This document shows, piece after piece, positions 17,724-30,287 of a stretch of DNA of 32,665 nucleotides. Numbering within the stretch: the stretch's first letter is position 1; each line of letters starts with the position of its first letter. The stretch spans positions 1 to 32,665 of the forward strand of contig NZ_JAMBOL010000037.1 of assembly GCF_023715605.1 (NCBI RefSeq), in the 5' to 3' direction. The notes under the pieces are model-generated. The model had not been told where the DNA came from. It saw only the letters and a program-made list of their open reading frames with translations, and did no database searches. Source of the DNA: Halalkalibacter oceani (GTDB lineage Bacteria; Bacillota; Bacilli; Bacillales; Bacillaceae_D). A program made the translations under genes and the position numbers.

Positions 17724-17787
17724 CAAGAAAACTGTACAAGGCACAGTTTCAGCATAGTTTTTTATAGAGGGAGTTTGCGAACCTCTT
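17724..17787 (-). promoter_or_regulatory. preQ1-I riboswitch controlling queCDEF
   Basis: On the minus strand 17786-17755 reads AGAGGTTCGC, AAACTCCCTCT, then ATAAAAAACTA. This is the class I preQ1 aptamer pattern: a short stem, a C-rich loop and an A-rich tail forming an H-type pseudoknot. Just downstream (17749-17724) AACTGT/ACAGTT with loop GCCTTGT and then TTTTC forms a small intrinsic terminator, the likely off state when preQ1 binds. A second hairpin (ATCCGAT 17655-17661 with ATCGGAT 17673-17679) precedes the queC ribosome site. TGCTATGAT upstream of the aptamer is a possible extended -10. Confidence 0.93.
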
Positions 17788-17839
17788 GATTTCATTCAGC
17801 CTTAATCATAGCATAGATGACCCGCCCGCGGCTATCCTT

Positions 17840-23787: not shown

Positions 23788-24711
23788 ATGAAAAAAATCA
23801 TTCTTTTCGCCGATCCCGGCATTGATGACGCTATTGCCCTGCTCTATGCGTTGCGCCAGCCATCCTTCGATATTCTCGCTGTTGTCGCCGAATACGGCAA
23901 CACGTTTCGCCGGTACGCCGTCAGCAACAGCATCTATTTATTACATGAAGGTGGAAGGAGCGACATACCGGTATTTACCGGGGCGGAGCGTCCGATTACC
24001 GGCGAGTCGCCGGATGTTCAGCCGACGATCCACGGCCCTTACGGATTGGGCGATTTACACCCTTTTTTAATCACGGAACAACCGGCCGAAAACATTGACC
24101 AGCTCATTCCACTGCTTGATCAGCACGCCGAAGAGCTTACCATTGTCACACTCGGGCGCCTGACCACATTAGCTGCACTTTTTTTACTTTATCCTGCTTT
24201 GATGAAGCGGATAAAGGAATTTTATCTCATGGGAGGAGCTTTTTCTGTGCCGGGAAATATTACTCCCTTCGCCGAGGCAAATATTTACGACGATCCGGCC
24301 GCCGCCAAAATTGTCGTCCAGCAGGCTGCCAATCTCACAATGATTCCGTTAAATGTCACGAATGAGGTTCTTTATCCGCCCGGATTTTTCTTTGAGATGG
24401 AAGCAGCAGGAGCCAATCCGCTCATACGGCGGCTCGCCGAGTTTTATCAGCGCTTCAACAGTCAGGAAAATGGCTCGTTGACAATCCCGGTTCATGATTT
24501 ACTAACCCTCGTCGCGCTCGCTGAACCTTCCTTGTTCACGTACAGCCATTATCGCGTCGCCATTATTACAGCGGAAGGATTAAGCAGAGGAATGACGGTG
24601 GCTGATATGCGTCCACTTTCAGAGCAGCCGCCGGGGCCTTATCCACGCATCGCCTTGGACGTCAATGCTCCGGCCGTGCTGCGCCATGTTTTTCATCTTT
24701 TCACCGCTTAG
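23788..24711 (+). CDS. inosine/uridine-preferring nucleoside hydrolase family protein
   Basis: A 307-residue enzyme that cleaves the N-glycosidic bond of nucleosides to base and ribose for salvage. The N-terminal calcium-binding motif DPGIDDA (D9, D13, D14) is intact. GGAF...NITPFAEANIYDDPAAA (about 150-175) supplies the ribose-binding Asn and Glu, and VHDLLTL (near 237) gives the C-terminal His/Asp pair. The start follows AAGGTGATCGC. Its stop overlaps that of the convergent YneR-like gene by 3-4 bp. Base preference cannot be read from the sequence. Confidence 0.9.
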   Translation: MKKIILFADPGIDDAIALLYALRQPSFDILAVVAEYGNTFRRYAVSNSIYLLHEGGRSDIPVFTGAERPITGESPDVQPTIHGPYGLGDLHPFLITEQPAENIDQLIPLLDQHAEELTIVTLGRLTTLAALFLLYPALMKRIKEFYLMGGAFSVPGNITPFAEANIYDDPAAAKIVVQQAANLTMIPLNVTNEVLYPPGFFFEMEAAGANPLIRRLAEFYQRFNSQENGSLTIPVHDLLTLVALAEPSLFTYSHYRVAIITAEGLSRGMTVADMRPLSEQPPGPYPRIALDVNAPAVLRHVFHLFTA

Positions 24712-25013
24712 CCTTCTGACTTTTGATGGACAAATTCAATTTCATCGAGCTTGCGGCTATATTTTATCGTTACATCGTGGTCGTTAAAATACCAAATATC
24801 GGCTTCTTCTATATAGAATATAATCCCATCTACAGTAGTCTCGGCCCCTATTTGAGCTGGAGGCTCCTGTGTAATTCCTAACGAAAAACCGCTTTGGATC
24901 GAACCGCATCCGCCATAACGGGCAAATAAGCGAATATAATGTTTTCCTTCGTCTGCAAAGGAAAATTCATCTTTAAACCATTGCAATGCCGGCTTTGTAA
25001 TCGTAATGTTCAT
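24708..25013 (-). CDS. yneR: HesB-like protein, YneR family
   Basis: About 101 residues of the HesB/IscA-like fold, closest in pattern to Bacillus YneR (MNITIT start, ALQWFKDE, RYGGCGSIQSGFSLGI, VDGIIFYIEEADIWYF, DEIEFV end). Only one cysteine of the A-type Fe-S carrier set is present (in GGCGS); the C-terminal C-x-C is absent, as in YneR. A role as Fe-S carrier is therefore doubtful. ATG 25013 gives the family N-terminus; a longer frame to 25040 is open but unneeded. A strong hairpin lies just upstream at 25084-25123. Confidence 0.82.
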   Translation of the reverse strand: MNITITKPALQWFKDEFSFADEGKHYIRLFARYGGCGSIQSGFSLGITQEPPAQIGAETTVDGIIFYIEEADIWYFNDHDVTIKYSRKLDEIEFVHQKSEG

Positions 25014-25083
25014 TTCACTCACTTCCTTCATAATTATCATATCAATTTATCACCAGACTGTCTAAAAAAACACAAACAGGCAT

Positions 25084-28663: not shown

Positions 28664-29059
28664 AAACCTTTAGTTATTGTAACACAAATGACATCTCCTT
28701 ACACCGCGAACAATGGCTTCCTCCAACGTCTGCAGACTTGATCACCATTATTATGAAAATATATGAAAGAAAGAAGACGCGAAAAACCTTGTTATTCCAC
28801 TGCGGGTAGAAAGGGGGGTATAACACTTTCAAAAACTGTGTAAATTTTCAACCGCCAGCTGATTCCACTGACCGAAAAGAAGAAAAAACCCGGGATAAAG
28901 GTTGACTTGCACCTTTTCCCCGGGCTTAAGGCAGTGAAAGAACTCTGAGGCTGCAACCTGCTGATCAGAATCTATAGGAAGCAGCCGCCTTCGGTACAGA
29001 GATTGCGCAAGAGCGATCGTTTCATCTCACTGCTCTCATTCAGTTGCGCGGGTTATCTG
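28664..29059. other. intergenic, contains one terminator and no gene
   Basis: 396 bp. The hairpin at 28889-28924 is a good terminator for the HesB selenoprotein operon. The remaining sequence, with imperfect GGCTGC/GCAGCC arms near 28951-28988, shows no start with a ribosome site on either strand. Confidence 0.5.
28889..28924 (-). terminator. terminator of the dipeptidase-HesB operon
   Basis: CCCGGG..AAAGGT pairs with ACCTTTTCCCCGGG, followed on the minus strand by TTTTTT (complement of 28883-28888). Confidence 0.8.
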
Positions 29060-29338
29060 TTAGCATTGATCTTGTCCGACAATGACAAGACCGCCACCAC
29101 CGTCTGTTTCCTGGTAGTCAAGAGTAACTGTCCGGACACTCTCCACCACTCCTGCTTCTATCGCCACTTCAATCCCGTTAATCGTTTCCCTTACATCGGT
29201 TTCTGCCGGCTCATCCAGAGCCAGTCCAAGCTTCGGGCCTCCTCAGCCCATGCCTGCGAAAACGACCCGGATTGTAGAGATTCCGTGCTCTTCCATCGTG
29301 CTTTTCACAAAGTCGCGCGCTTTATCTGTAATATTCAA
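29060..29338 (-). CDS. HesB-like selenoprotein (in-frame TGA read as selenocysteine)
   Basis: Reading through one TGA gives 92 residues of the HesB/IscA-like fold. It begins TTG (29336-29338) behind GAGGTGG, then LNITDKARDFVKSTMEEHGI, RVVFAGMG-U-GGPKLGLALDEP and VNGIEV-like INGIEVAIEAG, and ends in GGGGLVIVGQDQC. The TGA (29243-29245, residue 32) falls exactly where relatives have Cys in G-C-GGPxLGLAL, a family known to include selenoproteins. From 18 bases after the TGA, CUGGCUC-UGGAU-GAGCCGG folds into a 7-bp stem with G in the loop, where bacterial SECIS elements sit. Flanking frames before and after the TGA are intact and typical. It follows the dipeptidase by 28 bp. Sec insertion needs SelA/B/C/D encoded elsewhere; a nonsense pseudogene is the alternative. 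Confidence 0.75.
29206..29224 (-). promoter_or_regulatory. SECIS-like hairpin
   Basis: Within the HesB-like gene, CUGGCUC/GAGCCGG (7 bp, one G-U) with loop UGGAU. The loop is about 25 bases downstream of the UGA, within the distance range of bacterial SECIS elements. Confidence 0.6.
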
Positions 29339-29366
29339 CGCTGTTCCACCTCACTTTATGCTCGTT

Positions 29367-30287
29367 TTATTTTGGAACCGTTCTTCTGAAGTTATCCCCG
29401 AGAAACCCTTTGACAACTGTCGCAGAATAGTGCTTTTCCAATTCATTGACCAGTTTACCATAGTGCCCGCTATGCTTCAATTGATCGACATAGACATCAA
29501 TCCCGTCAAAATCCGAGCCGAAGCCGATATGACGGCTTGCCCCGAGCTCACACATATGCTCAACATGACGCAGGACATCGTCAATCGTCGCCTGCTCCTT
29601 CTCTGTCAGAAAGAGCGGGTGGAAGACAAGTCCGATAAAGCCGTTACGCTTAACAAGAGCGCTAATTTGTTCGTCCAGCAGGTTTCGGCGATGTGCGCAC
29701 AGCTTATAGGCATTGGAATGACTGGCAATTGGATAATCAGCCAACTCGATCACATCCCAAAATCCCTGGATGCTTAAATGCGAGACATCCGTCAATATTC
29801 GTTTCTTATTATGAAGCTCGACCACCTCTTTGCCGAGCAGGGAGAGTCCAGCCCCGCGCGGCTCGCCGACGCCGTCCGCACAGAGATTGGCCTGATTCCA
29901 GGTTAAGCCGACAGACAGTACGCCAAGCTGCAGCAGAATCGACAGCTTCGTCAAATCATCGCCGATCGGATCGAGTCCTTCCAGCGTCAATACCGCCCCT
30001 ATTTCGCCCTCCTGCAGGTCATCCAGCTCACTCCATGTTGTCAAATGGCGCATGAACGGATAAGGGGAAATGATCTTCTCATGAAAAAGCGAAATTTGCT
30101 CAAGCACAACCTGAAATTTTTGCTCCTGCTTGATCCATGGCTCGACAAAGATCGCAAATAGCTGAACCTCGACATTCCCCTCTTTCAGCCGGCTGGCGTT
30201 CGTATCGATTTCAGCAGCATCGAAAAAGGAGCGGTTCGGCTGCTCCCACAGCTTTAATAACGCATCACAATGTGTATCAATAATCAC
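29367..30287 (-). CDS. M19 family (renal-type) membrane dipeptidase
   Basis: A 306-residue zinc dipeptidase. Metal ligands are H6 and D8 (DTHCD), bridging E103 (LEGLDP), H170 and H190, with the SHSNAYKLCAHRRN segment and D259 in GSDFDG completing the active site. No signal peptide is present, so despite the family name it is probably cytoplasmic. It would cleave dipeptides, possibly including those with D-residues or Cys-Gly. The start is GTG 30285-30287 with AAAGGAGAG at good spacing. The HesB-like selenoprotein gene follows 28 bp later on the same strand, then a terminator, so they form a two-gene operon. Confidence 0.92.
   Translation of the reverse strand: MIIDTHCDALLKLWEQPNRSFFDAAEIDTNASRLKEGNVEVQLFAIFVEPWIKQEQKFQVVLEQISLFHEKIISPYPFMRHLTTWSELDDLQEGEIGAVLTLEGLDPIGDDLTKLSILLQLGVLSVGLTWNQANLCADGVGEPRGAGLSLLGKEVVELHNKKRILTDVSHLSIQGFWDVIELADYPIASHSNAYKLCAHRRNLLDEQISALVKRNGFIGLVFHPLFLTEKEQATIDDVLRHVEHMCELGASRHIGFGSDFDGIDVYVDQLKHSGHYGKLVNELEKHYSATVVKGFLGDNFRRTVPK

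Follow-up and report, generated by a model that had tools for sequence, protein, structure and literature searches.

A HesB-like gene with an in-frame UGA in Halalkalibacter oceani very probably encodes a selenoprotein

We analyzed a 32,665-nucleotide stretch of DNA from Halalkalibacter oceani, hereafter the window, which carries a small HesB/IscA-like gene on its minus strand (29060..29338). Read from 29338 to 29060 with TGA translated as selenocysteine (Sec, U), the gene encodes 92 residues followed by TAA, and no further stops lie inside the frame. The single in-frame UGA is codon 32 (29243..29245, minus strand), in the context GMG-U-GGPKLGLALDEP. This translation agrees with a reading made earlier from the sequence alone, which had proposed a 92-residue minus-strand frame with a lone TGA at this codon. 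The start codon is TTG, and a putative ribosome-binding site, GAGGTGG (29346..29352, minus strand), lies 7 bases upstream. An ATG, GTG or TTG start with a similar G-rich site upstream was found in 26 of 27 loci inspected; the row for the remaining locus, L051, starts past its start codon.

Just upstream, in the same direction and across a 28-base gap, is a gene for a peptidase of family M19 (membrane dipeptidase; 29367..30287, minus strand; Pfam PF01244, 319 bits), a probable operon partner of the HesB-like gene. Across 30 distinct loci, the window's own included, the M19 gene is found upstream in 24 (25 of 31 if a duplicate is counted). A SurA/trigger-factor-like gene lies downstream in at least 19 of these loci and an HSP20 gene beyond the M19 gene in at least 22, both counts being lower bounds because the loci, except L055, span only about 1.5 kb each way. 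No arsenic genes were found among the tested neighbors of the window gene. Past the end of the gene, a G+C-rich inverted repeat followed by TTTTTT (28883..28924, minus strand), recognized by eye, is a likely terminator; it is absent from the output of a simple scan. Elsewhere in the window, we noted a PreQ1 riboswitch at 17748-17791 (minus strand; 43.2 bits against a gathering score of 39) and, at 24708-25040 (minus strand), another protein that weakly matches the Pfam family Fe-S_biosyn (HesB-type; 28.6 bits against a gathering score of 26.3) and has no NCBIfam match.

At an E-value of 0.001, the window protein matches 137 of 149 genomes, ordinary A-type paralogues included; a scan of the genome contigs confirmed a single locus. 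Among the matches listed, down to about E 1e-5, the UGA form occurs in 43 of the 149 genomes, drawn from 14 families of the order. There were 73 match rows at E-values up to 1e-10, of which 70 were in the sequence set that we read, together with L055, a duplicate of L025. Two of the other three, from G135 and G032, are Cys forms of the HesB-like family; the third, from G047, was rejected as a Cys form because it is a regular A-type protein with CGC at its end. At the Sec site, the codons of 71 loci are UGA (48), UGC (13) and UGU (10). Cys, which the sequence-only reading had expected at this position in relatives, is thus the sole sense residue there, as it is again in a further 12 loci (plasmid and second copies). 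An alignment with Sec and Cys homologues, as that reading had advised, finds relatives keeping UGA or Cys, and not sense codons drifting at the site together with other disruptions.

Because relatives retain both the frame and its UGA, the interrupted frame is more than a chance one. The nearest relative differs by 13 base changes, all of them synonymous and in third positions, so that the two proteins are identical. In 26 comparisons that involve the window gene, share one sequence and are in many cases near saturation at synonymous sites, mean pN/pS is 0.39 before the UGA and 0.37 after it, suggesting that coding constraint is alike on the two sides.

Bacterial SECIS elements have a G early in the hairpin loop. 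In the window gene, a SECIS-like hairpin of 7 bp with the loop UGGAU (29206..29224, minus strand) begins 18 bases past the UGA (29245-29243), so that it lies just past the codon with a G early in its loop; one of its seven pairs is G-U. Folding bears out the same hairpin, loop and spacing as had been claimed from the letters. Judged by dinucleotide shuffles, the folding energy of the region gave a mixed answer: it is ordinary for the 56-base stretch from the UGA (z -0.34, 74 of 200 shuffles as good) and for a 49-base stretch (z -0.30), and unusual for a 64-base stretch that includes bases upstream of the UGA (z -2.38, 2 of 200). We also set each sequence against 200 recodings that change codons synonymously and leave its peptide intact, scoring a single hairpin without interruptions. 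This is a better control than comparison with Cys forms, because Cys forms differ in peptide too. Only 2 of 200 recodings did as well as the window hairpin, and the 5% level was reached by 29 of 45 distinct UGA sequences versus 1 of 23 Cys sequences; several of the 16 UGA sequences that miss it come from the same genus.

The pairs themselves are conserved. When the seven pairs were held fixed, 6 or 7 formed in all 45 distinct UGA sequences, amounting to 294 of 315 paired cells versus 59 of 161 in the Cys forms, 22 of 23 of which form at most four pairs (one forms six). In a control with slid partners, at most 156 of the 315 cells in the UGA forms pair. Two-sided changes that preserve pairing are seen at three pairs (the outermost C-G to U-A in 8 sequences, G-C to U-G in 7 and U-A to G-C in 1), and single further cases exist; in 11 of the 45 sequences, pair 24-38 fails to form. 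The loop starts with UGGA in every one of the 45.

A former Cys codon that had turned into a true stop would make the locus a pseudogene. UGA is indeed one base away from UGC and UGU, and Cys homologues exist; the same UGA is nonetheless shared by the 43 genomes in their 14 families, the sequence downstream of it is under constraint and the hairpin is conserved. We therefore consider a pseudogene very improbable.

The earlier reading had also held that this Bacillaceae host decodes UGA as Sec, naming selA, selB, selD and a tRNA-Sec gene (selC) as the genes to search for and hinging on selB and selC. All four are present in the host genome (4,474,054 bases in 124 contigs), on contig C47: selA (440747-442114, 567.9 bits) and selB (426032-427888, 367.5 bits), both over their cut-offs, the tRNA-Sec gene (421824-421916, 57.5 bits, anticodon UCA) and selD (439630-440559, 406.7 bits, over the cut-off), which contains one in-frame TGA. 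In the SelD locus (L009, 15532-16590, minus strand, on C47), this UGA falls in STKAG-U-GC, making SelD a likely second selenoprotein of the host. In a relative, G007, about 25 kb separates selA from the HesB-like gene on a single contig. The ends of C47 and of the window match adjoining places on that contig, and this synteny suggests that the distance between selA and the window gene is probably also about 25 kb in the host.

Sec machinery and the UGA form also go together across genomes. In every one of the 43 UGA-form genomes, selA exceeds its cut-off and selB matches at an E-value no higher than 1e-60. Both genes are present in 73 of the 149 genomes and, among the matches listed, the UGA form is found in 0 of the 76 genomes without both; another 30 genomes with the machinery show no UGA form among the matches listed, and so presumably have other selenoproteins. 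The association has P = 5e-18; neither this value nor the counts allow for genome relatedness. The UGA and Cys forms coexist in two genomes, and 20 genomes are Cys-only, two of which (G110 and G135) have selA and selB. In two UGA-form genomes, G008 and G012, selA is broken across reading frames; in G008 the selB match is also partial, spanning just 3-251 of 581 and containing a TGA. These split and partial genes are assembly error or decay. We observed the split selA in three same-genus genomes (L100, L101 and L110, from G012, G008 and G004), in which sequencing error and decay are not distinguishable; G004 has an additional full-length selA match without stops on its contig C11. The same-genus genome G003 has neither an over-cut-off selA nor selB, and its lone HesB-like match among the matches listed is at the A-type level (E 7.3e-7).

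UGA readthrough is known in Bacilli, which lends some credit to near-cognate reading of codon 32 without Sec. The confinement of the UGA form to genomes with selA and selB (149 genomes, among the matches listed), along with a sense residue that is always Cys, argues against this, and we hold it to be less probable still. A sequencing error at codon 32, in favor of which we saw nothing, has a negligible chance given the same UGA in other genomes. Relatives' codons, coding constraint and selA/selB co-occurrence thus led us to reject pseudogene, Sec-free readthrough and sequencing error alike.

We conclude that the window gene is, with high probability, a functional HesB-like selenoprotein gene whose UGA is read as Sec. 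The machinery, the conserved UGA and the hairpin support the earlier inference of Sec decoding by this host, and from them we infer that codon 32 is actually decoded in this way. In the mechanism that we propose, SelA and SelD would charge the UCA-anticodon tRNA-Sec, and SelB would bind the hairpin past the UGA and deliver Sec at codon 32; these comparisons strongly support insertion by SelB and the hairpin. The product would be of the A-type (IscA fold), with Sec replacing the first conserved Cys.

To which family does this protein belong? Its two best NCBIfam families are NF038090 and TIGR01911, for which it scores 60.8 bits against a curated cut-off of 85 and 44.9 bits against 66.35; another six Sec members score too low as well. 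Strictly applied, NCBI's rule places the window protein outside the HesB-like selenoprotein family. We aligned it with 59 of the 71 loci (60 rows, 40 Sec and 20 Cys), leaving out 12 because their rows were duplicated, nearly duplicated, incomplete or frayed. All 60 members match both families at E 0.001. The best E-values among them are 8.6e-18 for NF038090 (64.5 bits) and 1.2e-16 for TIGR01911 (61-62 bits as inferred on the same scale). As these best scores sit below the cut-offs, none of the 60 members, some of whose rows were trimmed to the matched part, would pass either one. We read the low scores as a sign of narrow cut-offs within what is probably the same family. In Pfam, the window protein has no match at E 0.001, and PF01521 matches 38 of the 60 members, the window protein not among them. 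The AlphaFold2 model of the protein (mean pLDDT 91.1) has IscA structures as its top PDB matches, the first two with TM-scores by query of 0.77 and 0.82, so that the predicted fold is that of IscA. Sec32 falls at the position of the first Cys in A-type proteins and stands in the UxGP motif as GMG-U-GGP. A-type carriers have three Cys ligands with a C-terminal CGC. The CGC is present in the A-type proteins aligned here; the window protein has Sec32 and a single Cys92 only. We nevertheless use the name HesB-like selenoprotein because of the motif, the fold and the best match. Sec32 and the C-terminal Cys92 may serve in binding metal, metalloid or Fe-S, or in thiol redox chemistry, a proposal to which we give an even chance.

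Relatives on plasmids offer a further clue to function. A DNA match of the window to a plasmid falls inside the HesB-like gene, and when we searched 72,556 plasmid records at the protein level, 22 gave a match (Cytobacillus, Priestia and others). In all eight of the plasmid regions read from these 22 records, arsenic genes (arsA, arsC, arsD, ArsI or an ArsR-type regulator) lie near the HesB-like gene, often with a trxB or phosphatase gene also present. The Sec site is TGC in five of the eight and UGA in the other three, all from Cytobacillus. These three UGA genes, observed among arsenic genes on Cytobacillus plasmids (L114, L115 and L116, at 2501), form 7 of 7 hairpin pairs with the loop UGGAU. 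The plasmid gene table, an incomplete one, lists the five Cys genes and lacks these three. Of four extra UGA copies examined in genomes, two lie in arsenic operons: one, from the same-genus G005 (L120, 4405 onward, contig C127), is a more distant HesB-like gene directly behind arsA, and the other, from G123 (L123), lies behind arsA and a phosphatase gene. For the remaining two (L121 and L122, from G140 and G071), a single neighbor was tested in each and neither was an arsenic gene. These contexts tentatively suggest that the small Sec and Cys HesB-like proteins of Bacillales could be thiol or selenol handlers of arsenic or other soft metals and not classical Fe-S carriers, a reading that we hold to be possible and rather doubtful. 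If it is true, the window copy would be a chromosomal version that acts together with the adjoining M19 dipeptidase. The window gene may then also be a main reason that the host retains its Sec machinery, because the formate-dehydrogenase-like matches of the host genome are without an in-frame stop and no SelW-like match was found there; a GrdB search matched 0 controls and so has no bearing on this.

As the sequence-only reading had stated, a HesB-like family with Sec members is long known, in the portions available of three papers: a 2006 survey has 11 HesB-like selenoproteins and names three selenoproteins from Bacillales (PMC1794560), a 2016 paper has 90 spread over 86 organisms (PMC5029168), and a 2026 account gives them with TIGR01911 and UxGP (PMC13188914). 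The available text of the last ties other selenoproteins, not HesB-like ones, to metal and arsenic resistance (PMC13188914). Literature searches for Halalkalibacter with selenoprotein, and for selenoprotein with arsenic resistance and HesB, found nothing; the arsenic-operon context of HesB-like selenoproteins was not found in print in the portions available and is apparently new. Since the curated models score this Bacillales branch below their cut-offs, its genes may be missed or split in annotation. The M19 dipeptidase context of Halalkalibacter relatives and the plasmid arsenic operons provide handles on HesB-like selenoprotein function.

Compared with known systems, the window protein resembles the HesB-like selenoproteins (TIGR01911, NF038090) in size, in its single Sec within UxGP (here UGGP) and in being IscA-like in sequence over nearly its whole length. 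Its branch differs in belonging to Bacillales and in scoring under both curated cut-offs, and the protein ends in a single Cys, whereas most relatives end in CC. With IscA, SufA and ErpA it shares the predicted fold but not their C-terminal CGC, and a distinct A-type paralogue, free of in-frame stops, is encoded elsewhere in the host genome (C80:62525-62785). In the regions read, the HesB-like proteins of Bacillales plasmid arsenic operons are 39-52% identical to it over 88-92 residues, and some of their genes share the UGA and the same hairpin; unlike these plasmid relatives, the window gene has an M19 dipeptidase gene as its neighbor and probably lies some 25 kb from selA.
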